DNA from: an uncultured Flavobacteriales bacterium
GTDB taxonomy: Bacteria; Bacteroidota; Bacteroidia; Flavobacteriales_D; Sanyastnellaceae
Direction: 5' to 3'
DNA length: 64,000 nucleotides
Assembly: GCA_938082505.1 (NCBI GenBank)
Contig: CALLLH010000021.1
Span: forward strand, 1-64,000
In this document: in pieces, positions 2,769 to 38,230 of the stretch
Layout of the letters: every line of letters begins with the position of its first letter
Numbering within the stretch: position 1 is the first letter of the stretch
Position numbers and translations under genes: made by a program
Notes under the pieces: generated by a model
What the model was told of the DNA's origin: nothing
What the model saw: only the letters and a program-made list of their open reading frames with translations
Databases searched by the model: none

Positions 2769-4367
2769 TCACATCGCTTGGGCGGTCTTGAACTCCGAAG
2801 TCGTGTGGAAAGTGATCTCGGGGAAGTTGCCCTGTTCCATGTCGAGCAGGAACTTGGAAGGGGAGAGGTAGACATCATTGCCGTCCTTGTCCACCGCCAT
2901 TTCGGACACCTTGAGCCGCTTGAATTCCGCAATCTTCTCCTCGTCACCGGTGAGCCAACAGGCTTTGTGGAAGCGCTTGGGAATGAAGCTTGCCTTGGCG
3001 CCGTACTCGTGCTCGAGTCGGTACTGGATGACTTCGAATTGAAGTTCGCCGACCGTGCCGACCACTTTCCGGTTGCCCGGATTCATGATGAACAGTTGCG
3101 CGACCCCCTCGTCGGTCAGCTGCTGTATGCCCTTTTCGAGCTGCTTGGACTTCATCGGGTCGTCGTTTTGCAGCTCCTTGAAGATCTCCGGTGAGAAACT
3201 GGGAATCCCTTGGAATTGCAGGTCTTCACCCTCGGTCAGGGTGTCGCCGATCTTGAAGTGGCCCGTATCGTACAGGCCGACCACATCGCCCGGGTAGGCC
3301 TCGTCCACCACCGCCTTGGCCGAGGCCATGAAAGTGGCGGGGTTGGAGAATTTCAGCTTCTTTCCGAGGCGCGTGTGGGTGTAGAACTCACCGCGCTTGA
3401 ACGTGCCGCTGCACACGCGAAGGAAGGCGATGCGGTCGCGGTGCCGCGGGTCGATGTTGGCGTGGATCTTGAAGATGAAACCGCTGAACTTGTCTTCTTC
3501 GGGCAGGATCTCGCGCTGCGTCGTCTGCCGGGGTCGCGGAGTTGGCGCAATGCGAATGAACGAGTCCAGCATTTCCTGCACACCGAAATTGTTGACGGCC
3601 GAGCCGAAAAAGACCGGAGCGACCTCACCGCGGGCGTAGGCCTTCATATCGAAGACATCGTAGACACCTTCGACCATTTCAACATCCTCACGCAGTTGGG
3701 CGGCGTGCTCATCGCCCACGAGTTCGTCGATGGAAGGGTCGTCGAGTCCCGTGATGTTGAGCAGGTCTTCCGTAACGCGTTGCTTGTCCGATTGGAACAG
3801 GCGGAGCGTGCTGTCGAACAGATTGTACACCCCCTGGAAAGTGTGGCCTTGGCTGATTGGCCACGACAATGGCTTCACCTTGATGTCCAGCTTCTCCTCC
3901 AGTTCATCGAGCAGGTCGAATCCATCGCGCCCCTCGAGGTCCATCTTGTTGATGAAGATGATGACGGGGGTGTTGCGCATGCGGCAGACTTCCATGAGGC
4001 GCTCGGTCTGGGCCTCGACCCCCTTGACGCAGTCGATCACGAGGATGACGCTGTCCACTGCGGTCAACGTCCGGTAGGTGTCCTCCGCGAAATCCCGGTG
4101 GCCCGGCGTGTCGAGCAGGTTGATCAGGCTGTCCTTGTACTCGAAGGCCATCACCGAGGTGGCCACGGAGATTCCCCTTTGGCGCTCGATGTCCATGAAG
4201 TCGGACGCCGCTGTCTTCGTGATCTTGTTGGACTTCACCGCACCGGCCGTCTGTATGGCCCCCCCGAACAGCAGGAATTTCTCCGTCAACGTGGTCTTGC
4301 CAGCGTCCGGGTGGCTGATGATGGCGAAGGTCTTGCGCCGAGCGATTTCCTGGGTCAATGCGGCCAT
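2769..4367 (-). CDS. prfC: Peptide chain release factor 3
   Basis: A 532-residue translational GTPase that recycles RF1/RF2 from the ribosome after peptide release. All GTPase motifs are present: G1 SHPDAGKTT (18-26), the RGIS switch I region (64-67), G3 DTPGH (86-90), and G4 NKMD (140-143). The C-terminal part carries the RF3-specific domain, and the length fits bacterial RF3 (about 525-530). The start at 4367 is supported by a -7 promoter element 7 bases upstream. The gene is monocistronic or leads into the TonB-receptor pair 41 bases downstream, which has its own promoter element. Confidence 0.97.
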
Positions 4368-17273: not shown

Positions 17274-18995
17274 ATGGTATTGAAAAGTTTGCTCAGGGCC
17301 ATTCCGTTGCTTTCCGCCGCGTTAGGATTTTCCGGGATGGCGCATGCACAGGACTGTGGATGCCTGCCCTTGGAGCAGCGGAGCATCATTACCCTGACGG
17401 ACAATGCGGGTTCCGGCACGGGAACCCAAACACTCTCGTGCGACAACATCTACTTGCTGGATGGTTTCGTCTATGTCAATGCCGGGGATGTCCTGACCAT
17501 CGAGCCCGGCACCGTCATACAGGCAAAGGAGGGGCAAGGTGCATCGGCGAGTTGCCTCATCGTTGCACGTGACGCCCAGATTCTGGCCGACGGAACAGCG
17601 GACTGCCCCATCATCTTCACCTACGAGGGCGATCCGCTCAACGGCTCAACACCGTACAACACGCAAGGGCTCTGGGGAGGTGTGATCATCAATGGCAACG
17701 GCATACTGAACACATATTATCCTTCCAGTGCGGGATTCGGTGACGATTGGGCCGAGGGCATTGCCGATTCCTCAGGCGAGGGCCGGGATCTCTACGGCGG
17801 GCTGGACAATGCGGAATCAAGCGGCACCCTCCGTCACATCTCCATTCGCCATGGTGGAAGCGAGATGCCCAATCCCCCGGTCAATTTCCAGAACGTCATC
17901 AATGGCGACGAGACGAATGGCCTGAGTCTGAATGGCGTGGGATCCGGTACCATTGTCGAGCACATCGAAATCGTGTCCACATTGGACGATGGCCTCCAGA
18001 TCATGGGGGGCGCCGTCAACCTCAAATACGTCGCGGTGGCATTCAGTACCGAAGACAACCTGGAGTACGACCAGGGGTGGGTTGGGGACATGCAGTTCTT
18101 TTTCTCATTGCTGGACCAACCGGCCAAATCGGGAGAGCATGGGTTCGACCTGGAGGGGGACGATTTCGAATTTCAGGATGTGACCTTGAGTTTCCTGCCC
18201 TACACCAATCCCCAGATCGCCAACTTCACGAGCATCGGCCACGATCAGGCGACCGCCGTGCGCTGGCACAATGGCGGCGGTGGAAGGCTGTACAACGGCA
18301 TTTTCCAGCATTGGGATTTCGGCATCGACTTCGAGGACAATGATCCTTGCGATGCTTACGAGCTCTTTCTCTTCGGTGAACTCGAAATCCACAACAATCG
18401 ATTCTGGAATGTGGGAGACAGCCTCGCCCTGGACACGATGATCCTGTATGAGGGCCCGGTGTGGAATGGCAACATGCAGATCCAGAATCATTTCGTGGCC
18501 AACAACAACGTGGGGGCGGACCTGGGAATTGACGATACGTTCGAAGCATTGGCCGGCTTCATCACTTCAGGCATTGATCCGATTCCTTCGGTGGCCGACT
18601 CGATTCCAGCGGAGCACCAGCCCGTCGGCACCTTCTTCGATCCTGTGGACTACACCGGAGCATTCTCTCCGGATGGTCCCAACTGGTTGGCCGGATCGTA
18701 CCTCGACCAGATGGGCCTGTTCTATCTGGGTGACATTCCAGGCTGCATGTATGCTTGGGCGTGCAACTATAGCCCGGCAGCCAACCTGGACGATGGCTCC
18801 TGTGACATTGTATCCTGCGGTGGATGCAAGTACCCGGACGCTGCGAATTTCAATCCGGCCGCCCTGTTCGACGATGGAACCTGCGTGTGGAATGCCGTTG
18901 CCAACCCGTGTCCCACCGATGTGGATGGAGACGGTACGACGGGCGTGAACGACCTGCTCGAGATTCTGTCACTCTTCGGCGCGAGCTGCGGCTGA
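17274..18995 (+). CDS. Secreted protein with two cysteine-rich repeats and a dockerin-like C-terminus
   Basis: A 573-residue exported protein. The signal peptide (residues 1-26) ends SGMAHAQ. Residues ~30-480 are one large beta-rich region (LTIEPGTVIQAKEGQG, LWGGVIINGNG, EHIEIVSTLDDGLQIMGG) that reads like a right-handed parallel beta-helix; such domains appear as adhesins or glycan lyases. Then come two copies of the ~25-residue cysteine-rich repeat (WACNYSPAANLDDGSC and a second ending LFDDGTC), also found ~39 times in the protein at 26990. The end (DVDGDGTTGVNDLLEILSLFG) is a single dockerin-like calcium loop plus helix, also shared with that protein. No canonical T9SS tail is evident. Function is unknown; surface adhesion or polymer binding is plausible. 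Confidence 0.8.
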   Translation: MVLKSLLRAIPLLSAALGFSGMAHAQDCGCLPLEQRSIITLTDNAGSGTGTQTLSCDNIYLLDGFVYVNAGDVLTIEPGTVIQAKEGQGASASCLIVARDAQILADGTADCPIIFTYEGDPLNGSTPYNTQGLWGGVIINGNGILNTYYPSSAGFGDDWAEGIADSSGEGRDLYGGLDNAESSGTLRHISIRHGGSEMPNPPVNFQNVINGDETNGLSLNGVGSGTIVEHIEIVSTLDDGLQIMGGAVNLKYVAVAFSTEDNLEYDQGWVGDMQFFFSLLDQPAKSGEHGFDLEGDDFEFQDVTLSFLPYTNPQIANFTSIGHDQATAVRWHNGGGGRLYNGIFQHWDFGIDFEDNDPCDAYELFLFGELEIHNNRFWNVGDSLALDTMILYEGPVWNGNMQIQNHFVANNNVGADLGIDDTFEALAGFITSGIDPIPSVADSIPAEHQPVGTFFDPVDYTGAFSPDGPNWLAGSYLDQMGLFYLGDIPGCMYAWACNYSPAANLDDGSCDIVSCGGCKYPDAANFNPAALFDDGTCVWNAVANPCPTDVDGDGTTGVNDLLEILSLFGASCG

Positions 18996-26961: not shown

Positions 26962-26967
26962 ATTGTG

Positions 26968-26989: not shown

Positions 26990-29900
26990 ATGAACATGCG
27001 CTTTCAACTGTACTCCCTCGCTTGTTTGCTGGTCTCCTTCATTGGTGCAGCATCCGCCCAAAACGCCTGCTATGACTTCGCTGGCGACACTGCAGGCTTC
27101 CACCTTTCCGTGGAAACCTACGCCACTGATGTGGTGGGTGGAATGACAACATACCGCGTCTTTTTGTCCACTCCGGACACAAATGACTTCGTATCAGCCT
27201 GCATTGGCGATGCGACGAATCCGTTGTTCCTGAACACAACGACGTCCTTTTACCAGGATCCGTTGGGTGGAACGACTGCGGCGTCCATCAATCCATTGTA
27301 CTACGGGCCGTTCCCCAACGCCGAATTCGACAGTTGGGTGACCATCGGCATTGCTGAACAGCCCGTTCTCAGTGCTGGAGAAACGGACGTTTCAGTGCTG
27401 GTCGATCCGAACGTCCCCTCGTGGGAAATCGGTTTCGGAGCCGGAGGGAATGTGGACATCGGCTCGCCCATCGGGGGGGGCTGGTATATCCTGCCGAGCA
27501 GCGCAAACGGTGTTTCGGGAGCAGACCAGAAGGTCCTGCTCGCTCAATTGACCACGGATGGGGAGATCAGTGGTCAGTTGTACGTGCAGATTTTTCCGAA
27601 TGGAGAGCAAGCTCAGTTGATCGAGACCACCTTCAGTTTTGCTACCACCACTTGCGGAGCAACCGGCTGCATGGACAGCAGCGCATGCAATTACGATGCT
27701 TCCGCCACGAGCGATGATGGCTCCTGCACCTATGCACAGGCCAACTTCGACTGCGACGGCAACTGCCTGACCACGCCCACTACATTCAATGTGGACATGT
27801 CCTGCAGCGGTGAGACTTTCTCTACTGTGCACGTGACCGGTCCGTGGTGTGGATGGTGCGGTGCCGAATCCTACAACACCCTCAGTGACGAGGATGGGGA
27901 CGGAGTCTATTCAGTTTCGGTCTGTATCCCTGCTGGAGACGTCGAGTACAAGTACATGATCGACAACTGGGCCGGACAGGAGAACCTCATTGATGATGCA
28001 CAATCGGGTGGGGCCTGCGCCGCCGTGACCGATGCCTCGACCTATGCCAACCGTCTGACGGCTTCAGGCTCTTCGACCAATGACACCTATGGCAGCTGCC
28101 TGACCTGCGACGAGCAGGCCGCAGCCGACCTCGGTTGCACGGATGACGATGCGACCAATTACAGCGCAGCGGCTTCCACGGATGACGGTTCCTGCATGTA
28201 CAACGTCACCTTCCAGGTGGACATGAGCCAGTCAGGCATGGCTTCCGGAGATGTGGCCTACATCAATGGCACCTTCAACGCTTGGTGCGGTGACTGCAAT
28301 CCACTCGACGACTCCGATGGCGATGGCATCTGGACTGCGACGCTGCCGTTGCCTCCGGGGGTGGTGGAATACAAGTTCACCATCAACGGATGGAGTGCCC
28401 AGGAGGAGCTCAGTGTAGGCTCCGCTTGTGACTACAATCCGACGGATGGCTTCGCCAATCGCGGTTTCGAATTGATTGATGCCCCATTGACCCTCCCATT
28501 GGTATGCTACAACAGCTGCTCTGTATGTGCCGAGGACATCGAAGGTTGCATGGACTCGACCGCTTCCAACTACAATGCGGATGCGACGGTGGCCGGTACC
28601 TGCCAGTATTCCGTGACGTTCCGTGTTGACATGGGCAACTTCGGCGGCTCATTCGGCGCCGTGAACGTCAACGGCTCCTTCAATGGATGGTGCGGCGCTT
28701 GCAACCCGATGACCGCAGTAGGAGATGATGTCTATGAGGTGACCCTCAACATCAGCGCCGATACCATTGAATACAAGTTCACCCTCGATGGCTGGTCCCA
28801 ACAGGAGGATTTGACTCCGGGCACTTCATGCACGAGCACAATCGATGGCTTCACGAACCGGAGCCTCGTGGTCAACAGCCCCCAGGACCTCGCCACCGTA
28901 TGCTGGAACAGCTGTGAGGCATGTGTTGACTTCCCGGGTTGCATGGATTCCTCTGCGGTCAATTACGACAGCACGGCCCTGATTGACGACGGGTCCTGTC
29001 AGTACACCGTGACCTTCCAGGTAGACATGGGCCAATACGGCCTTGACGAAGGGGACGTGGTCTACGTGAACGGCACCTACAATGGATGGTGCGGCACCTG
29101 CAATCCCATGGACGACAGTGATGGAGATGACGTTTGGAGCCTGACCGTCAATATTGGCGAAGGACTGCAGGAGTACAAGTTCACCATCAACGGGTGGACG
29201 GTCGACGAGCAATTCGACGGCTCGGAATCCTGCACGACGGCTCCTGCCGAGTTCGTGAACCGCGTCATCGATGTGACCGGAAATGCGACCTTGCCTGCGG
29301 TGTGCTGGAACAGCTGTGACGCATGCCCGGTTCCCGGTTGTACCGACGCGAACGCCTGCAACTTCATGCCTTCCGCCGATCAGGAGGACGGCAGCTGTAA
29401 TTTCTGCTGTGCCGCTTTGGGCAGCAACTTTGCCGGATATGGCCTCGAGCAGGAAATCGTTTCCCATGACGGCATTCCCGGAATGAAGACGTACCGTTTC
29501 TATATCACCACGCCCAATGCGGATGATGTGGTCAGCGCCATCAGCGGCGATTCCGACCTTCCGACCTTCGTGAACACCACGACTTCCTTCTATCAGGATG
29601 CTTCGGGTGGTTTGTTCCCCAATGGCATCAACCCCATTCTGTTCGGAGACTTTCCCTCCTTGCAGTTCGACAGCTGGTTGACCATCGGAATCGATCAGGC
29701 TCCCGATGTGGCCGCAGGAGAAGCCGCAATTTCATTGGCCGAAGCCGAGAGCTGGAGCACCGAGTTTGAAAGCGGCCAGAGTTTCGCCATCGACGGATTC
29801 TTCGGAGGTGCCTGGTATGTGACCAGCGACAACAGCAATGGCCTCGCAGGTGATGATCACAAAGTCCTCTTGGCCCAGCTGACCACGGATGGAGAACTGA

Positions 29901-32900
29901 GCGGACAATTCGTCGTGCAGGTTTTCCCGAATGGAATTGGCGATGGCCTGGGCGACATGGTAACCCTCACTTTCGGTCCCCATACGGATACGGAAGCACC
30001 GGCCTTTACTTCGGTTCCCCTCGATGTGACCGTGTCGTGCAGCGATGCACTGCCCACCGGAGAAGCCCAGGCGACCGATGCCTGCACGGAGGTGAGCATT
30101 TCCATGGAGGAGACCACCACGGGTGATGGATGCAATGGCACCGTCGTGCGCACGTTCACGGCCACCGATGTTGCCGGGAATTCCTCCACGGCGACATGGA
30201 CCATCACGATTCAGGATGATCAAGCGCCCACCTTCACGGCACCCGCGGATGTTGCCGTCAACTGCGGCGACGACCTTTCTCCGGCCAATACTGGGGATGT
30301 CACGGATGCCGCGGATTGCAACACCTTCAGCATCACTTACAGCGATGCCAACTTGTTCAATCAGAATCCCTGCGTGGGCGAGGGCATTGCTCGGACCTGG
30401 AGGGTGGAGGATGCCTGCGGCAATGAAGCCGTGAAGATCCAGGTCATCATGGTGAACGATGCGGCCGCTCCGACGTTCGTTGAGGTTCCCGCGGATACGA
30501 CGATTTCTTGCGATGCGGCTGTGCCGACCTCTGATGTAGTGGCCGCCGATGATTGCGGCAGTGTCTCCACGAGCCAGTCCGACGAGGTGGTCGAGGGAGA
30601 ATGCGATGGTGCTTCCACCATCCTGAGGACCTTCACCGCCCAGGATCCCTGCGGCAACACCAGCTCTTACGTTCAGACCATTTCCATCATTGACACCGTG
30701 GCGCCGACCTTTACGAATGTCCCCGCCGACGTGACCTACAGCGTCTATGATGACGTGCCAGTGGTCTTGGCCGAAGCTTCGGACAACTGCAGCGCCGCCA
30801 CGGTTCTGTACGAGGATGATCTCGACGCCAGTGCCAATGAATATGCGACCTTGATCCGCACCTTCACCGCGGTGGATGCCTGCGGAAACTCGGCCACCGC
30901 CGTTCAGACAATCACGGTACTCGAAGTACTCGGCTGCATCGATCCCCTTGCCTGCAACTTTGAAATAGGCGCCACAGCGGATGACGGCAGCTGCGACTAC
31001 TGTTCCTGTGATGGGGTGTTCCCACCTGCGGGTCCATTCGGCCTCGAAATCGATACGATCGAGGGAGGAATCGATGGCATGACCACTTACCAGGTGTTCA
31101 TTACCCTCGAAAATGCCGATGATTTCGTCAGCTCAGTGACCGGCGACTCCAGCAACCCCAGTTATGTGCGCACGAGCACTGCGTTCCATCAGGATGCGCT
31201 TGGATCGGCCAACGCCCACGGCATCAATGCCCTGGTGGTGGATGCGTTCCCCGCCCTGGCCTATGACAGCTGGGTGAGCATTGGCTTGAATTCGGCTGCC
31301 AATCCGGCCGACGGAGAAGGAGAAGTCTCCCTCGTGGAGGGTGAGCCCTGGGTCAGTGCTTTCGAAGCCGGTGGAGACATCGACCTGACCGGACAATATG
31401 GCGGTGGATGGTTCATCCTCAATGGCGCTTCCAATGGAAGCGCAGGCGATGGACTGCGCGTACTGCTCGGACAATTCACGACCGATGGCGTGTTCAGTGG
31501 CCAGCTCTATGTTCAGGTCTTCCCGCAAGGAGACGGCACGAACATGCAGTTCCAGACGTTGCGCTGGGGTGAGCCGCAGTGCGGCTGTCAGTTGGAGAAT
31601 GCGTGCAACTACGATCCTTCCACGGCCTACACCGACAATGACAACTGCCTGTATCCCGAGGACATCTACGGGGCTGTCCATTTCGATTGTGATGGCGCTT
31701 GCCTCAACGACAGCGATGGTGATGGCGTGTGTGACGAGGATGAAGTTCCGGGTTGTACCGACGATACGGCGTGCAACTATGCCGAGTCTGCTACTGACGA
31801 TGACGGATCATGTGAATACCCGCCTTACGGATACGAGTGTGATGGTTCCTGCATCTCCGACGGGGACAATGACGGCATCTGTGACTTGAATGAGGTTGCC
31901 GGTTGCAACCTGCCCAGTGCGTGCAACTACGATGCCGCGGCGACCGAGAATGATGGCAGCTGCACCTTCGACTGCTACGGCTGTACCGACAGCACCGCAG
32001 GCAACTTCGACGCGGGCGCATTGCTTGACGATGGCAGCTGCCAATACGGCGGTTGTACCAACAGCAATGCCATGAACTATGATGCGGATGCTGACTTCAA
32101 CGACGGATCCTGTCTGTTTGCCGGCTGTACGAATGTGTTGGCCTGCAACTTCACGCAGGGAGCCAACTTCGACGATGGTTCCTGTGACCTGCTGTCCTGC
32201 GCCGGATGTACGAACAGCCTGGCTTGCAACTATGATTCGACTGCTACGCTGTCTGACGGCAGCTGTGAGTTCTTCTCATGCCGTGGTTGCATGGAGGCCG
32301 GTGCCGTGAATTATGACGCCACAGCCACGATTGACGATGGTTCCTGCCTCTTCGGCGGATGTCTCGACCCAGGGGCCAGCAACTATGACGCCACGGTGGA
32401 CTTCAGCGATGGCACCTGTCAGTACGATGGTTGCACGAATCCACTGGCTTGCAACTTCGACATCAATGCCAACGTGAACGATGGCACTTGCGAGTTTGCT
32501 TCATGCTCCGGTTGCATGATCACATTTGCCTGCAACTATGATCCGGAGGCCACCATCCAGGTGGACAGTGCCTGTGACTTCTATGGTTGCTGTGGCGATC
32601 CTGCCGCCGACAACTATGAGGTGGGTGTTGCTGACTTCCTGACCTATGGTTGCACCTACGGAGGTTCTGCACCCATGGTGGAAGCCGTGGGATGTGAATT
32701 GCCCTTCGCGTGCAACTTCGGCGATGCCGTGAACGACTGTGAGTTCTCATCCTGCGCTGGATGTACGGAAGCGCTCGCCTGCAATTTCGATTCGACAGCC
32801 ACGATCCCCGTTACCTGTCTCTACCCTGAGGACATTTTCGGTGTGGACTATGTCGACTGCATGGGTGACTGTTTGACCGACACCAACGCCAATGGCCTCT

Positions 32901-35900
32901 GTGATGAGGTCGAGGTGAGCGGTTGCACGAATCCCCTCGCTTGCAACTACGACGCCCTCGCGACTTTCGATGATCAATCCTGTGACACGTTGAGCTGTTA
33001 CGGTTGCACAGACTCCGGTGCGTGCAACTACGACGCCTCGGCCACTCAGAACGACGGCTCCTGTGACTATGTGACCTGCTTCGGTTGCATGGATGCCACT
33101 GCGTGCAATTATGATGCGAGTGCCATCTACAGTGACGGCTCCTGCAACTATGCACCAGGGCCCTTGCTGGACTGCAATGGAGACTGCATCAACGACGGCA
33201 ACAACAATGGCATCTGCGACGAGCAGGAGACACTTGGTTGCATTGACATCAATGCCTGCAACTTCGATGCCGATGCCACCTTCAACGATGGCTCATGCGA
33301 ATACTTGAGTTGCACGGGTTGCACCAACGCTTCCGCCTGCAACTATGATGCATCCGCGACCATCAATGATGGGGGCTGTGAATTCACCAGCTGCTTGGGC
33401 TGTACGGATGCCACGGCCTGCAACTATGATGCGGACGCCACCCAAAGCGATGGCAGCTGCACCTACCCCGTGCCGGAGTACGACTGCAATGGAGACTGCC
33501 TCTTGGACACCGACGGTGACGGCATTTGTGATCCCTTCGACGGCAACTTCAGCGGTTGCATGGACCCCATTGCCTGCAACTATGCTCCGTTGGCCGATGA
33601 GGACGATGGCTCCTGTGATTTCTGCAGCTGTGCGGGATACACCTCGGACCTGCCGCAGTATGGCGTGGAAATCGAGGAGTACGCCACCAACGGCATCTCC
33701 GGTTACATCACCTACCGCGTGTACATCACGTTGCCGAATGCTACGGACAAGGTGAGTGCGATCACGGGTCAGACCGCGAACCCTACATACGTAGAGACCA
33801 CGGGTGACTTCTACCAGCACCCCAATGGCGGTGTCTTCCCCAATGGCATCAACCCCATCCTCTACAACTTCGTACCCGAGATTGAGTTCGACAGCTGGTT
33901 CACCATCGGTATCGATGCTGCTCCTGTCAGCGCGAACGGTGAAGGCAACATTCAAGGCCTGCCCGAGCCCGACCCCTGGAGCTCATTGTTTGAGAGTGGT
34001 TCCGGTTTCTCGATCGATGACATCATCGGTTCCGGTTGGTTCGTCAACCCGGACGTGACCAACGGAATTGCGGGCGACGACAACAAGGTCCTGCTCGCCC
34101 AGTTGACCACCAACGGTGAACTCAGCGGACAGTTCTATGTCCAGGTGTTCCCAGAAGGCAACAACGTCAACCAGGAGCGCGTCACCCTGACCTTCGGAGG
34201 CAGCCAGTGCGGCTGTACGGATGTCACGGCATGCAACTTCTCCGCAAGCGCCATCATCGATGACGGCAGCTGCTACTATCCCCAGTTCGGATATGGCTGC
34301 GACGACGTCTGTCTGTTCGACAGTGAGGCGCCCCAGTTCACGGAAATCCCCGTGGATATCAATGTGAGCTGCACGGCCGACATCAGTGTGGTCATGCCCG
34401 CGGCCACCGACAACTGCGACCAGGATTTGACCTTCACCTACAATGACGAGATCATTGACGGCCCTTGCGGTGAGACCTTCGACATCATCCGGACGTACAT
34501 CGTCACCGATGACTTCGGTTATGCCGATACCGTATCCCACGTGATCCATGTGGTGGATGAGCAGGCTCCGATCTTCACGAACGTCCCCGCAAACGCCACC
34601 TTGGAATGCGGTGATCCCCTCCCGACCAACCAGGCCGTGGCTGTGGACAACTGCAATGGCGTCACCATCACACATGCTGATGAAATGACCGTCACGGGTT
34701 GCGGCAACTCAGGCACCCTGGTCCGCACCTGGTATGCCGAGGATGCGTGTGGCAATGTGAACGAGGCTGCGACGACATACACCATCGTGGACAACACGGC
34801 TCCGGCCATCGCTGATGTCCCAGCCAACCTGACGATCGGATGTGAGGAAGACTATGACTTCCCGAACCCGACGGCGAGTGATGCCTGTGGAAGTGTGGAG
34901 CTTTCCGAGGAGATGACCGTGCTGGATGGTGGATGCCCGAACAGCTACACGATCGTCCGGACTTTCACGGCCATCGACGCCTGTGGCAACTTCAGCCAGG
35001 CCGTGCAGAGTGTGACCGTTGTGGATGATGACGCTCCAGTGTTGGCCGGCTTGCCTGCCGACCTGACGCTCGAATGCGGAGATGCCATCCCTGAGACAGG
35101 CGTAACGGCGGAGGATGCCTGCGCCGGCACCATGGAAGTCACTTATTCCGACGTGGAAGTGACCTTGGATGCCTGTCAATATCAGGTGGTCCGGACTTTC
35201 GCAGCAACGGATTCCTGCGGCAATACGGCCACACATGATTGGACGATCACATTCGAGGACACCACGGCTCCGACCTTCACGGCTCCTGAGGATGTGACAC
35301 TCGACTGCTCCGACGACATCAATCCGGCCAATGCGGGTGATGTGTCCGACGAAGCGGACCTGTGCGATGCTGCACCGGGTGTGAGCTACACTGACGTCGT
35401 GACCGATGGCGTGTTCTCTCTTGAGGGCATGACCGCCGACCTGCGCGTTGAGCTCCGCCTTGACAACCTGGCTGCCTTCCCGCGCGTGCTGGAGGCAAAC
35501 GGCGTCACCATCGGCAGTGGCATGGAATTGACCTTGGCTGATCAGATTTCCAACCCGCTCAACTTGCGCGGTGCCTTGGAGATCGACATCACGGGCAACC
35601 AGATTGGTTTGTCTGTAGCCGACGTCATCGGTGCCGAGAGCTATGACTACATCGAAGTGCGCATCAGCAACATTTCTGGTGCGGGCGTCATCGGGGCGAA
35701 CATCGACCAGGGCAACCTGCTGAGTGACGCCGCTTCTGCTGACTGGGTTGTATCGACACTGGCCAATGAAATTGTGTTGGTCCTCGATGAGGTGGATGGC
35801 GCTACGCTCTCCATCCAGGATGGTGGCTCGGCTTCCTTGGCCGCTTTGAGTCCAATCAACTGCTTGACCGACAACATCATCACCCGTACATGGACGGTGA

Positions 35901-38230
35901 CCGATGCCTGTGGCAACAGCACATCTGACGTGCAGGTCATCACCTTGCAGGACATGACGGCTCCGGTCTTCGACTTCGCGCCGGCAGACCAGACTTTGGA
36001 TTGCGCTGCTGATTATGCGCTCGAAATGGCCACGGCCACGGATGCCTGCACGGGTGTCACGGTGACCTATGTGGACAGTGAGAGCTTCCCTTGCACTGGT
36101 AGCCGTGTCATAGAGCGTGTCTTCACGGCAGTGGATGGTTGCGGAAATTCGACCACCCACCTCCAGACGATCTCATTCCTCGATACCACGGCTCCGACGT
36201 TCACCGCAACGCCTGAGGATCTGTCACTCGAGTGCAGCGATGCGCTTCCCATTACTTCTGCTGAAGCGAGCGATGATTGTGGTTCCGTGACGGTGACCTA
36301 CGCTGATGAGACCGTGGCAGGAGACTGCTCCGGCAACTTCACCGTACTGCGCACCTTCACCGCTGAGGATGGCTGTGGCAACAGCAGCACGTACCTGCAG
36401 ACCATCGTGTTTACGGACACGACCGCGCCGGTTGTGACCTCTGCACCTGCCGACACGAGCTATGCCGTTTTTGCAGGTCAGACCATTCCTGTGGAATTCC
36501 CGGAGGCGGAAGATGCCTGCGGCACCGTGGACATGACGTTCGTTGATGTTTGCACGGAGCAGGAACTGGGTGGTTACACCGCCGTCAGGACCTTTACCAT
36601 CACCGATGATTGCGGCAATGCCACGGAGGTGACCCAGTCGGTGACGGTGACCTTTGCCCTCGGCTGTGACGATCCTGTGGCGGTCAACTATGATCCGACC
36701 GCGATGGCGGGTGATGGTTCCTGTATCTATGCCGGTTGTACCAACCCGGATGCCCTCAACTTCAACCCGCTTGCGGACGAGGACGATGGCTCCTGCCTGG
36801 TGGTTGACATTGAAGGCTGCACCGATCCAGTGGCATGCAACTACTTCGAGGCGGCCAATGTGGACGACGGTTCCTGCGATTACTGCAGCTGCCTCAGCGC
36901 GCCTGTGATTGACGGCTACAGCGTCGAACTCGAGACTGTTGCCGTGGATGGTGTGCCCGGAATGACCACTTACCGCCTGTATGTCACGATGGTCAATCCG
37001 ACCGACGTACTGTCCAGTGTCGTGGGTGAGGATGGACTCGAGACCTACATCAACACGACGTCCTCGTTCTACCAGGATCCGTTCGGTGGTGCGCTCGGTC
37101 AGAACGTGAACCCCATCTTGTTCAGTTTTGCGCCCTTGCTGCAGTATGACAGCTACGTGACCATCGGATTGACCCAGGCTGCAGATGTTGCGGCCGGTGA
37201 AATCGAGGTGACGGCAGTGGAGAGTTCTGGAGCCAATTGGATCGCGCCTTTCGAGGCCGGTGGCAACGTTGCAATCGATGGAGCCTTTGGCGGAGCCTGG
37301 TTCACCCTCAATGGTGCGACCAACGCTGTGGCCGGCGACGACTTGCAGGTCCTGCTCGGTCAGTTCACCACCGGAGGTACGCTCAGTGGACAGATCAGCT
37401 TGCAGATCTTCCCGGAGGGCAACGGTGACAACGATGTCATCATCACATTCCCCATCGGCAACAGCACTTGCGGTTGTACCGATGAAACCGCATGCAACTA
37501 CAGCGCAGACGCCACCAATGATGATGGCAGCTGTGAGTATACCGGAGTCTATGATTGCGACGGTGAGACCTGCATGAACGATGTGGACGGTGATGGCATC
37601 TGCGATGAGCTCGAGGTGCCTGGTTGCACGGACGGTACGGCATTGAACTACGCGGCCGGTGCTTCCGACGACGATGGCTCCTGCCTCATCCTCGGCTGCA
37701 TGGATCCGGCGGCGGACAACTATGACGCCACGGCCAACGTGGAAGGGGAGTGCACCTATCCGAACGAGGGTTGTACAGATGCATCAGCGGTCAACTACGA
37801 CGGAACCGCACTTGTGGATGATGGCTCCTGCCTGTTCCTCGGTTGCATGGATCCCGAAGCGGACAACTACGATGCGAATGCGAACGTCAGTGGTTTCTGT
37901 TCCTACCCGGTGGAGGGCTGTACCGATGCGGCAGCGGCCAACTATGACGACACGGCCATCATCAACGATGGAAGCTGTCTCTATCCGGGTTGTACCGACC
38001 CGACGGCGTTGAACTACGATCCTGCCGCAAACTTCGATTCGGGTTGCATCCTGCCGTTGGTGGGCTGCACCGATCCGCAGGCCGAGAACTACAACCCGCT
38101 CGCCAACACCAATGACGGCTCTTGCGAGTACACGCCGCCTTGTCCGGGTGACCTCAATGGTGACGGTACGATCAACATCAACGACCTGTTGGACTTCTTC
38201 CAGATCTACGGATCGGACTGCCCACAGTGA
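26990..38230 (+). CDS. Giant secreted mosaic protein with cysteine-rich, HYR-like and carbohydrate-binding-like modules
   Basis: A 3,746-residue exported protein; the signal peptide ends FIGAASAQ. I chose ATG 26990 since the upstream in-frame ATG would overlap the promoter. Five module types are visible. A: ~190-residue domain, five copies. B: ~110-residue beta-sandwich (VTFQVDM...YKFTINGW) resembling starch-binding-type carbohydrate-binding modules, four tandem copies. C: ~25-residue cysteine-rich repeat (CTDxxACNYDxxATxDDGSC), about 39 copies, some followed by calcium-loop inserts such as DSDGDGVCDEDE. D: ~78-residue HYR/immunoglobulin-like repeat (APTFTxxPADVTxxC...VRTFTAxDxCGN), 12 copies. 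E: dockerin-like end (DLNGDGTININDLLDFFQIYG). No catalytic domain is seen. It is probably a calcium-stabilised surface or matrix protein; export by T9SS is possible but no canonical tail is seen. Confidence 0.85.
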   Translation: MNMRFQLYSLACLLVSFIGAASAQNACYDFAGDTAGFHLSVETYATDVVGGMTTYRVFLSTPDTNDFVSACIGDATNPLFLNTTTSFYQDPLGGTTAASINPLYYGPFPNAEFDSWVTIGIAEQPVLSAGETDVSVLVDPNVPSWEIGFGAGGNVDIGSPIGGGWYILPSSANGVSGADQKVLLAQLTTDGEISGQLYVQIFPNGEQAQLIETTFSFATTTCGATGCMDSSACNYDASATSDDGSCTYAQANFDCDGNCLTTPTTFNVDMSCSGETFSTVHVTGPWCGWCGAESYNTLSDEDGDGVYSVSVCIPAGDVEYKYMIDNWAGQENLIDDAQSGGACAAVTDASTYANRLTASGSSTNDTYGSCLTCDEQAAADLGCTDDDATNYSAAASTDDGSCMYNVTFQVDMSQSGMASGDVAYINGTFNAWCGDCNPLDDSDGDGIWTATLPLPPGVVEYKFTINGWSAQEELSVGSACDYNPTDGFANRGFELIDAPLTLPLVCYNSCSVCAEDIEGCMDSTASNYNADATVAGTCQYSVTFRVDMGNFGGSFGAVNVNGSFNGWCGACNPMTAVGDDVYEVTLNISADTIEYKFTLDGWSQQEDLTPGTSCTSTIDGFTNRSLVVNSPQDLATVCWNSCEACVDFPGCMDSSAVNYDSTALIDDGSCQYTVTFQVDMGQYGLDEGDVVYVNGTYNGWCGTCNPMDDSDGDDVWSLTVNIGEGLQEYKFTINGWTVDEQFDGSESCTTAPAEFVNRVIDVTGNATLPAVCWNSCDACPVPGCTDANACNFMPSADQEDGSCNFCCAALGSNFAGYGLEQEIVSHDGIPGMKTYRFYITTPNADDVVSAISGDSDLPTFVNTTTSFYQDASGGLFPNGINPILFGDFPSLQFDSWLTIGIDQAPDVAAGEAAISLAEAESWSTEFESGQSFAIDGFFGGAWYVTSDNSNGLAGDDHKVLLAQLTTDGELSGQFVVQVFPNGIGDGLGDMVTLTFGPHTDTEAPAFTSVPLDVTVSCSDALPTGEAQATDACTEVSISMEETTTGDGCNGTVVRTFTATDVAGNSSTATWTITIQDDQAPTFTAPADVAVNCGDDLSPANTGDVTDAADCNTFSITYSDANLFNQNPCVGEGIARTWRVEDACGNEAVKIQVIMVNDAAAPTFVEVPADTTISCDAAVPTSDVVAADDCGSVSTSQSDEVVEGECDGASTILRTFTAQDPCGNTSSYVQTISIIDTVAPTFTNVPADVTYSVYDDVPVVLAEASDNCSAATVLYEDDLDASANEYATLIRTFTAVDACGNSATAVQTITVLEVLGCIDPLACNFEIGATADDGSCDYCSCDGVFPPAGPFGLEIDTIEGGIDGMTTYQVFITLENADDFVSSVTGDSSNPSYVRTSTAFHQDALGSANAHGINALVVDAFPALAYDSWVSIGLNSAANPADGEGEVSLVEGEPWVSAFEAGGDIDLTGQYGGGWFILNGASNGSAGDGLRVLLGQFTTDGVFSGQLYVQVFPQGDGTNMQFQTLRWGEPQCGCQLENACNYDPSTAYTDNDNCLYPEDIYGAVHFDCDGACLNDSDGDGVCDEDEVPGCTDDTACNYAESATDDDGSCEYPPYGYECDGSCISDGDNDGICDLNEVAGCNLPSACNYDAAATENDGSCTFDCYGCTDSTAGNFDAGALLDDGSCQYGGCTNSNAMNYDADADFNDGSCLFAGCTNVLACNFTQGANFDDGSCDLLSCAGCTNSLACNYDSTATLSDGSCEFFSCRGCMEAGAVNYDATATIDDGSCLFGGCLDPGASNYDATVDFSDGTCQYDGCTNPLACNFDINANVNDGTCEFASCSGCMITFACNYDPEATIQVDSACDFYGCCGDPAADNYEVGVADFLTYGCTYGGSAPMVEAVGCELPFACNFGDAVNDCEFSSCAGCTEALACNFDSTATIPVTCLYPEDIFGVDYVDCMGDCLTDTNANGLCDEVEVSGCTNPLACNYDALATFDDQSCDTLSCYGCTDSGACNYDASATQNDGSCDYVTCFGCMDATACNYDASAIYSDGSCNYAPGPLLDCNGDCINDGNNNGICDEQETLGCIDINACNFDADATFNDGSCEYLSCTGCTNASACNYDASATINDGGCEFTSCLGCTDATACNYDADATQSDGSCTYPVPEYDCNGDCLLDTDGDGICDPFDGNFSGCMDPIACNYAPLADEDDGSCDFCSCAGYTSDLPQYGVEIEEYATNGISGYITYRVYITLPNATDKVSAITGQTANPTYVETTGDFYQHPNGGVFPNGINPILYNFVPEIEFDSWFTIGIDAAPVSANGEGNIQGLPEPDPWSSLFESGSGFSIDDIIGSGWFVNPDVTNGIAGDDNKVLLAQLTTNGELSGQFYVQVFPEGNNVNQERVTLTFGGSQCGCTDVTACNFSASAIIDDGSCYYPQFGYGCDDVCLFDSEAPQFTEIPVDINVSCTADISVVMPAATDNCDQDLTFTYNDEIIDGPCGETFDIIRTYIVTDDFGYADTVSHVIHVVDEQAPIFTNVPANATLECGDPLPTNQAVAVDNCNGVTITHADEMTVTGCGNSGTLVRTWYAEDACGNVNEAATTYTIVDNTAPAIADVPANLTIGCEEDYDFPNPTASDACGSVELSEEMTVLDGGCPNSYTIVRTFTAIDACGNFSQAVQSVTVVDDDAPVLAGLPADLTLECGDAIPETGVTAEDACAGTMEVTYSDVEVTLDACQYQVVRTFAATDSCGNTATHDWTITFEDTTAPTFTAPEDVTLDCSDDINPANAGDVSDEADLCDAAPGVSYTDVVTDGVFSLEGMTADLRVELRLDNLAAFPRVLEANGVTIGSGMELTLADQISNPLNLRGALEIDITGNQIGLSVADVIGAESYDYIEVRISNISGAGVIGANIDQGNLLSDAASADWVVSTLANEIVLVLDEVDGATLSIQDGGSASLAALSPINCLTDNIITRTWTVTDACGNSTSDVQVITLQDMTAPVFDFAPADQTLDCAADYALEMATATDACTGVTVTYVDSESFPCTGSRVIERVFTAVDGCGNSTTHLQTISFLDTTAPTFTATPEDLSLECSDALPITSAEASDDCGSVTVTYADETVAGDCSGNFTVLRTFTAEDGCGNSSTYLQTIVFTDTTAPVVTSAPADTSYAVFAGQTIPVEFPEAEDACGTVDMTFVDVCTEQELGGYTAVRTFTITDDCGNATEVTQSVTVTFALGCDDPVAVNYDPTAMAGDGSCIYAGCTNPDALNFNPLADEDDGSCLVVDIEGCTDPVACNYFEAANVDDGSCDYCSCLSAPVIDGYSVELETVAVDGVPGMTTYRLYVTMVNPTDVLSSVVGEDGLETYINTTSSFYQDPFGGALGQNVNPILFSFAPLLQYDSYVTIGLTQAADVAAGEIEVTAVESSGANWIAPFEAGGNVAIDGAFGGAWFTLNGATNAVAGDDLQVLLGQFTTGGTLSGQISLQIFPEGNGDNDVIITFPIGNSTCGCTDETACNYSADATNDDGSCEYTGVYDCDGETCMNDVDGDGICDELEVPGCTDGTALNYAAGASDDDGSCLILGCMDPAADNYDATANVEGECTYPNEGCTDASAVNYDGTALVDDGSCLFLGCMDPEADNYDANANVSGFCSYPVEGCTDAAAANYDDTAIINDGSCLYPGCTDPTALNYDPAANFDSGCILPLVGCTDPQAENYNPLANTNDGSCEYTPPCPGDLNGDGTININDLLDFFQIYGSDCPQ
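27065..27655 (+). repeat. Module A, copy 1 of the giant protein
   Basis: About 195 residues. Landmarks shared by all copies: a TTSFYQD motif, a FDSWVTIGI motif and QLTTDGEISGQLYVQIFPNG. I do not recognise a named domain. Confidence 0.7.
27775..29323 (+). repeat. Block of four module B (carbohydrate-binding-like) copies
   Basis: Copies at about 27775-28110, 28200-28530, 28611-28923 and 29004-29323, each separated by one cysteine-rich C repeat. Shared landmarks: VTFQVDM, a NGxxNxWCGxCNPM turn, DDxDGDxxW, and EYKFTINGW. The fold resembles CBM20/48-like starch-binding modules. The first copy is the most divergent. Glycan binding is inferred. Confidence 0.65.
29413..29985 (+). repeat. Module A, copy 2
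   Basis: Landmarks TTTSFYQDASGG, QFDSWLTIGID and AQLTTDGELSGQFVVQVFPNG. It separates the B block from the first HYR-like block. Confidence 0.7.
29989..30930 (+). repeat. First HYR-like block, four tandem copies
   Basis: Copies begin near 29989, 30214, 30457 and 30690, each ~78 residues, each opening with D-x-x-AP-x-FT-x-x-P and closing with VRTFTA-x-D-x-x-GN. HYR domains are immunoglobulin-like adhesion modules. Confidence 0.75.
31008..31590 (+). repeat. Module A, copy 3
   Basis: Landmarks TSTAFHQDALGS, AYDSWVSIGL and GQFTTDGVFSGQLYVQVFPQG. It is the most diverged copy around the FYQD motif (FHQD here). Confidence 0.7.
31585..33640 (+). repeat. Array of about 21 cysteine-rich C repeats
   Basis: Tandem units of ~24-27 residues with the core ACNYDxxAxxxDGSC, two to three cysteines per unit. 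Four units carry ~25-residue calcium-loop extensions (for example near 31690, 31850, 33180 and 33490). Some units lack the central ACNY cysteine (AGNF, AMNY, AVNY, ASNY). Two units around 32520-32690 are irregular. The DNA of the units is diverged, so this is an old expansion. Confidence 0.8.
33640..34205 (+). repeat. Module A, copy 4
   Basis: Landmarks TGDFYQHPNGG, EFDSWFTIGID and AQLTTNGELSGQFYVQVFPEG. Confidence 0.7.
34321..36660 (+). repeat. Second HYR-like block, eight copies, one with a large insertion
   Basis: Copies begin near 34321, 34555, 34790, 35023, 35257, 35950, 36180 and 36415. The copy starting at 35257 is interrupted at about 35395-35880 by ~160 unrelated residues before it closes with the normal TRTWTVTDACGN. 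The others have the standard ~78-residue length. Confidence 0.75.
36895..37470 (+). repeat. Module A, copy 5
   Basis: Landmarks NTTSSFYQDPFGG, QYDSYVTIGL and GQFTTGGTLSGQISLQIFPEG. It precedes the last C-repeat array. Confidence 0.7.
37470..38130 (+). repeat. C-terminal array of eight cysteine-rich C repeats
   Basis: Eight units ending just before the dockerin-like tail. Several lack the ACNY cysteine (ALNY, AVNY, AADNY, AENY), so they probably form one disulfide each. The first unit has a calcium-loop extension (DVDGDGICDELE). Confidence 0.75.

Follow-up and report, generated by a model that had tools for sequence, protein, structure and literature searches.

Anatomy of the giant protein and its locus

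The window, i.e., the whole stretch of 64,000 nucleotides analysed here, carries an ORF for a giant modular protein of 3,746 aa and a second gene whose product ends in the same type of C-terminal tail (Table 1). The giant frame starts with ATG at 26990 (an alternative TTG start at 26963 is also open) and stops at 38228-38230. It is intact over 26990-38230 with no internal stops, as an earlier sequence-only reading of this DNA had claimed, and the chance of 3,746 stop-free codons, computed with the frame's own base composition, is ~10^-58.

Table 1. Features of the giant protein and of the second tail protein in the window
Feature	Positions	Strand	Basis
Second tail protein, 573 aa; tail 18909-18992	17274..18995	+	genome tail search
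Giant protein ORF	26990..38230	+	3,746 aa, translated frame
Sec signal peptide-like N-terminus	26990..27061	+	about 24 aa, read by eye
A module 1	27062..27661	+	alignment of A modules
B module 1, CBM48/AMPK1_CBM-like; best X25 stretch, protein 289-328	27773..28117, approximate	+	Pfam + local HMM
B module 2, CBM48-like; best CBM_48 stretch, protein 425-470	28196..28543, approximate	+	Pfam + local HMM
B module 3, CBM48-like	28604..28936, approximate	+	Pfam + local HMM
B module 4, best AMPK1_CBM stretch, protein 687-763	29000..29335, approximate	+	Pfam + local HMM
A module 2	29402..29989	+	alignment; structure predicted, mean pLDDT 95.5
D block 1, four HYR_4C-type repeats	29996..30931, approximate	+	Pfam + local HMM
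A module 3	31001..31579	+	alignment
C repeats, main array, 18 by local HMM	31583..33616	+	regular expression + local HMM
A module 4	33623..34207	+	alignment
D block 2, eight HYR_4C-type repeats (nine by local HMM, one split)	34328..36661, approximate	+	Pfam + local HMM
Insert of ~147 aa in one D repeat	~35411..35851, protein ~2808-2954	+	read from translation
A module 5	36884..37468	+	alignment
C repeats, C-terminal array, 8 by local HMM	37472..38125	+	regular expression + local HMM
C-terminal 'half-dockerin' tail, last 29 aa	38141..38227	+	genome search, alignment, phmmer

The protein contains 217 Cys, 408 Asp, and 10 Lys residues and is very acidic (computed pI 4.05); its signal peptide-like start, as judged by eye, is MNMRFQLYSLACLLVSFIGAASA-Q. 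According to the local HMMs, the modules follow the order A-C-B-C-B-C-B-C-B-C-A-D4-C-A-C18-A-C-D9-C3-A-C8-tail. The module counts of the sequence-only reading are reproduced: five A modules (the other four being 39-46% identical to the first), four carbohydrate-binding-like B modules (AMPK1_CBM, PF16561, in four stretches), about 39 C repeats (39 by regular expression, 36 and 37 by local HMM), and 12 HYR-like D repeats (HYR_4C, PF23237, in 12 stretches). Known families, which that reading had assigned to B, D, and in part C, do cover B and D, but the C repeats, with the pattern GC-x-D-x(3)-A-C-N-Y/F ... D-D-G-S-C, have no Pfam or NCBIfam match above cut-off in the giant; the same is true for its A modules and tail. 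Both CBM48/AMPK1_CBM models (PF02922, PF16561) match the B modules above their curated cut-offs (76.1 bits vs 26.8 and 61.3 vs 22.4), so that by family membership these modules are predicted to be carbohydrate-binding-like. HYR_4C matches the D modules with 180.2 bits against a cut-off of 27. These families are building blocks of the giant and do not define the protein. The local D HMM reports 13 matches, the surplus being ascribed to one D repeat split by the ~147-aa insert, which had been overlooked and has no family assigned. The NCBIfam LapB_rpt_80 and GlgB-type models were rejected with scores below their cut-offs.

The Pfam, NCBIfam, and PDB sequence searches found no enzyme domain in the giant, and none was found in three scanned A-module paralogues either.

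The model of A module 2 is a confident beta-sandwich (pTM 0.91). Foldseek reports nothing for it at E<=0.001 (the top row has E 0.009), and therefore no fold family is claimed for A. The best rows belong to MSCRAMM-type adhesins (staphylococcal and streptococcal), followed by complement, cohesin, and other beta-sandwiches. A Pfam scan of 56 A modules gave 18 families at E<=1, each in one to three members with a best E of 0.004, which were taken as chance; Pfam cohesin models match neither these 56 modules nor the giant. With A, the locus defines an unnamed domain family with a confidently predicted structure. As for the C-repeat/tail segment, its model (mean pLDDT 80, pTM 0.43) is only moderate at the tail, with 73-77 there and 59 for the last five residues, and its fold rows (MPEG-1, EF-hands, and dockerins) are all weak, with E>=2.2.

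The giant gene is flanked by ffh and argS, and ribD and a dimethylarginine hydrolase gene follow further out; this arrangement is found in 11 other loci too (L082, L084, L090, L092, L094, L097-L099, L108, L110, and L133), where Ffh is ~60% identical to that of the window. The window neighbours, namely a redox protein, ApbE, a PagL-like protein, a weak EamA match, RibD, Ffh, ArgS, and DDAH, are ordinary. In two genomes of the same genus the frames measure 3,782 and 3,822 aa, each having five A matches; together with the preserved ffh-argS order, these similar lengths rule out a broken frame or an assembly artefact. The orthologues in other genera were compared by our local module HMMs. Ten of the 11 loci keep the plan A...A-D4/5-C-A-C(n)-A-C-D7-9-C2-tail, in which A and C modules replace B, and the remaining one (L084) keeps the B modules and has no D. 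Since both plan and locus are shared across genera, the group has conserved the giant gene while its module content changed, and the ffh-argS locus is home to a conserved secreted protein of giant size.

Public genomes yielded 71 loci with relatives of the A module. All of these genomes are metagenome-assembled, and almost every one bears the label Flavobacteriales, Crocinitomicaceae, Cryomorphaceae, or Bacteroidetes. L129, labelled Chryseobacterium gleum, has a giant-like A-module frame beside ffh, and L121, labelled as a euryarchaeote, has such a frame with a partial argS match; both labels look wrong. In L083 and L100 the giant's frame is in three pieces in each assembly. The window's own genome encodes on contig C29 (L068, 275-13444) a protein of 4,390 aa with five A modules, ~109 C repeats by local HMM, and the same tail. 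It has no Pfam match at E<=0.01 and is an even more repetitive relative of the giant.

The C-terminal tail and the proteins that carry it

The tail is a 28-residue single EF-hand bracketed by Cys, with Cys-1, Asp-4, Asp-15, and Cys-27 invariant in 30 aligned tails. The dockerin-like end noted earlier is thus present as the last 29 residues of the giant, but it is a genome-wide C-terminal tag rather than just another module. With these 29 residues as a query, 72 places were found in the own genome at E<=10. Fetched stretches contain 70 of the 72, giving 52 proteins for examination, and in 51 of them the motif stands at the extreme C-terminus, the final Cys being 0-3 residues from the end (one of these 51 meets a contig edge before the stop). 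The sole exception is L042 71-742, which has the motif near the N-terminus, after a signal peptide (frame residues 44-71).

Among 44 examined tails, a single repeat is present in 21 and a pair in 23. When all 52 proteins are typed, L042 included, a C repeat lies within 60 residues of the end in 21 of the 26 single-type ones. A signal peptide-like start was assigned by a crude rule to 37 of the 45 tail proteins with a start codon, a rule that is loose because 5 of 10 comparison proteins of the window also pass it, some of which look membrane-bound or exported. For two relatives from another genus of the family, all 20 tails from the best-scoring rows lie at the end of their proteins, and in one genome an identical 28-letter tail ends five different genes.

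A domain scan covered 49 tail proteins, i.e., all but the giant, the 4,390-aa C29 protein, and L042. They match 51 and 59 families, for which the first 25 names of each were considered. Among the matches listed are GH16, GH81, alpha-amylase, M43, reprolysin-type, and endonuclease I domains, as well as lysyl oxidase, FG-GAP, and choice-of-anchor B. The NCBIfam GC-type dockerin NF041540, a model of anchored proteins, matches 7 of the 49, and the double form of the tail is therefore partly named already; a search for 'GC-type dockerin' in the open-licence subset of the literature gave no matches. The 573-aa protein of the window has no Pfam match at E<=0.01 and no NCBIfam match at E<=0.001. One of the 49 proteins matches the model of the T9SS sortase PorU (best E 1.1e-12). 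On contig C2 of the relative G044, six tail frames at 734-791 kb and three at 2751-2771 kb lie ~7-20 kb apart, several of them 2,000-3,300 aa long, which suggests arrays of tail-protein genes.

Exchange with the T9SS type A domain and distribution

The own genome encodes SprA/Sov, and the genome-wide sorting-domain search, which covered type A (TIGR04183), reports 45 matches, 40 of them over cut-off. None of the 45 overlaps with the 52 tail-motif proteins. On the giant, TIGR04183, TIGR04131, and NF033708 have no match to E 1, and neither Pfam nor NCBIfam has a model that matches its tail.

Proteins with A modules occur with both ends. The collection contains 90 frames (89 without the window's own), three of which are from own-genome loci; after setting aside 25 that run off contigs and 3 duplicates, 31 distinct frames end in a tail according to the local profile and 30 do not. 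At E<=0.01, 0/31 tail ends match any NCBIfam model, and 23 of the 28 scanned non-tail ends (of 30) match TIGR04183. The five ends without it are presumably the four from L083 and L100, the loci with broken frames, and that of L128, where C repeats come last. Three A frames of the own genome have TIGR04183 (C7, C12, and C21:77020), the C7 match being below cut-off. A known sorting model for the tail is thus rejected for the giant and for the 31 tail ends of its relatives.

The same alternation is seen in M43 proteases. Among 48 frames, 10 have tail ends and 22 have T9SS-like ends; 9 extend past the edge of their locus, and the other 7 match neither local profile. The sample was chosen rather than random (30 best-scoring loci, 20 picked stretches mostly from own-genus genomes, and three own-genome tail loci). 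L177, an own-genome protease that ends in a T9SS domain, shares 57-63% identity in the catalytic region with L036, L054, and L063 of the same genome, which have tail ends. The two swaps are not wholly independent, since two of the latter three show one weak A-like match. The tail thus alternates with the type A domain, which supports an equivalent role. As for PorP/SprF shuttle genes next to tail genes, the candidate was dropped: by coordinates, none of the seven homologues adjoins a known tail gene, the nearest being ~5 kb from one.

The tail is nearly restricted to one family. In a draw of 150 genomes from the order, the tail profile at E<=0.001 matches 39/41 genomes of the window's family vs 10/109 others, with one or two matches each in the latter, and A modules are present in 41/41 vs 9/109. 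At least 40 tail matches were counted in 26 of the 41 family genomes; all such genome counts rest on draft genomes, and the numbers of matches are lower bounds. In a phylum-wide draw with a threshold of E<=1e-5, 3 of 395 genomes have the tail, and one of these three, with a single match, lies outside the family. TIGR04183, by comparison, is found in 149 of the 150 genomes of the order. Over the 41 family genomes, tail and T9SS-domain densities are opposed (rho -0.61), and over 17 genus means rho is -0.47 (p 0.06), both values being from loose first-look counts with kinship ignored.

Cohesin PF00963 has no match at E<=1 in the own genome and is found in 0/6 genomes of its genus; within the family, 9/61 genomes have it at E<=0.001, 5 of them over cut-off. 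A canonical cohesin-dockerin pair was therefore rejected for want of a PF00963 match in genome and genus.

Sorting, docking, and other readings of the tail

In the reading that we favour, with a probability of about 0.5, the giant is a secreted scaffold or adhesin with an undescribed C-terminal sorting or docking tag. The protein would be exported by Sec and then fold with calcium and disulfides. Its five A beta-sandwiches and four carbohydrate-binding modules would provide binding surfaces, and the HYR-like and Cys-rich repeats would act as rigid spacers. The last 28 residues, a putative calcium-binding EF-hand loop and helix with a Cys at each end, would serve as the sorting or attachment tag, in the role that sister proteins give to their T9SS type A domain. 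Most likely, this tag would be read by its own receptor or its own T9SS shuttle and so bring the protein, once exported, through the outer membrane and/or to the surface, and at the cell surface the giant may work as a scaffold or adhesin.

Like the T9SS sorting domains (TIGR04183, TIGR04131, NF033708), the tail is C-terminal and occurs on enzymes and adhesin-like proteins; most tail proteins have a Sec signal-like start, SprA is encoded in the genome, and the tail exchanges with type A. Unlike them, it is a 28-aa Cys-bracketed EF-hand, and T9SS models find no match in the 31 A-module proteins' tail ends. Passages of PMC12618676 and PMC10202324 on these signals distinguish types A, B, and C, of which A and B each have a shuttle to themselves, type A being ~100 aa and Ig-like and type B 150-235 aa. 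An additional signal that uses a dedicated shuttle would have a precedent in this. As a sorting signal, the tail would be unusually short, since T9SS signals are ~100 aa or longer according to the corresponding part of PMC12618676. The non-terminal motif of L042, the 7/48 M43 frames with neither end, and the lack of a PorP/SprF homologue beside any known tail gene also count against sorting. In addition, the tails may bind rather than sort, because about half of them are double and dockerin-like and 7/49 proteins match the GC-type dockerin.

If the sorting or docking reading is correct, a short calcium-loop tag that replaces type A on enzymes and adhesins would represent a new class of sorting or docking signal. 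In each genome, dozens of protein ends would then have a function, and this in a little-studied group whose 71 public relatives are without exception metagenome-assembled genomes. At the level of search listings, the open-licence literature yielded no description of a tail of this kind with T9SS, Flavobacteriales, Planctomycetes, or marine Bacteroidetes.

A possible, though rather doubtful, alternative is that the tails are half or whole dockerins binding a cohesin-like receptor, by which enzymes and structural proteins would be assembled on a surface scaffold, in the manner of cellulosomes or of the proposed 'planctosome'. The giant's tail has the calcium-loop and helix motif of type I dockerins, and phmmer aligns it with both halves of the CelS dockerin 2y3n (whole-sequence E 0.0016, the single stretches being not significant). 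Dockerins are among the weak fold rows of the tail segment (E 5.8-9.7), two repeats are present in 23/44 tails, and the seven NF041540 matches point the same way. The giant's own tail differs from type I dockerins in having one repeat instead of two, its Pfam scan to E 1 lists no dockerin, NF041540 is absent from its NCBIfam matches to E 1, and PF00963 is missing from the own genome and five others of the genus.

As for the receptor, it could be the A modules of the giant and of the T9SS-domain proteins. A is the obvious candidate because it co-occurs with the tail (41/41 and 39/41 family genomes, as well as 8 of the 10 tail genomes outside the family), and the two densities are correlated over the 41 family genomes (rho 0.72, first-look counts). 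This co-occurrence, however, proves little alone, since A and tail are often in the same protein, which by itself could cause it. Cohesins make up 4 of the best 50 Foldseek rows for A, but these rows are weak (E 0.12-0.22) and no match of A to cohesin is significant. Docking, moreover, leaves the outer-membrane crossing of tail proteins unexplained.

It is unlikely that the tail is a calcium-clamped end cap against C-terminal unfolding and proteolysis, with neither sorting nor a binding partner. A closed Cys-calcium loop is plausible as a cap, and neither the PF00963 search nor the inspection of PorP/SprF neighbours revealed a partner. Against a cap stand the zero overlap with the type A domain, the replacement of type A on related M43 and A-module proteins, and the identical tails on five genes of one genome, which suggest a shared partner.

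Quite improbable is a cellulosome-like surface assembly that lacks classical cohesins, in which A modules would be the tail receptors, the giant a five-receptor adaptor scaffoldin, the T9SS-ended A proteins anchors, and some fifty tailed proteins (proteases, glycosidases, nucleases, and others) the cargo. The giant's layout of five A modules, four carbohydrate-binding modules, and a dockerin-like tail does resemble an adaptor scaffoldin and thereby also speaks for docking in general. In comparison with cellulosome or planctosome scaffoldins, the giant has four CBM48-like modules but only a half-dockerin tail, and no Pfam cohesin modules. The 'planctosome', proposed in the part of PMC6461901 devoted to it as a cohesin/dockerin protease complex of freshwater Planctomycetes, likewise has a dockerin-bearing adaptor with an HYR domain and reprolysin-type peptidases as cargo; it differs by belonging to another phylum and by its recognisable cohesins, none of which are found here by PF00963. 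Were this assembly real, it would amount to a docking system that originated in a single family of Flavobacteriales or is mostly limited to it.

Least probable is the view of the sequence-only reading that the giant is a surface fibre or matrix protein whose tail is just another module without its own role: although the protein is repetitive, very acidic, Cys-rich, and has no enzyme domain found, the same tail ends dozens of other proteins, enzymes included, which already weakens it. The more general part of that proposal, a calcium-bound, disulfide-rich surface or matrix protein, fits the data.

The macrophage protein MPEG-1 appears in both the fold and the sequence searches of window positions 37763-38227, over ~23-28 residues. 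Its fold rows are weak (E 2.2-3.5, 50-56% identity over 25-28 columns), phmmer places it on a C repeat with E 0.27, and the likeness of the C repeats to it is probably due to convergence.
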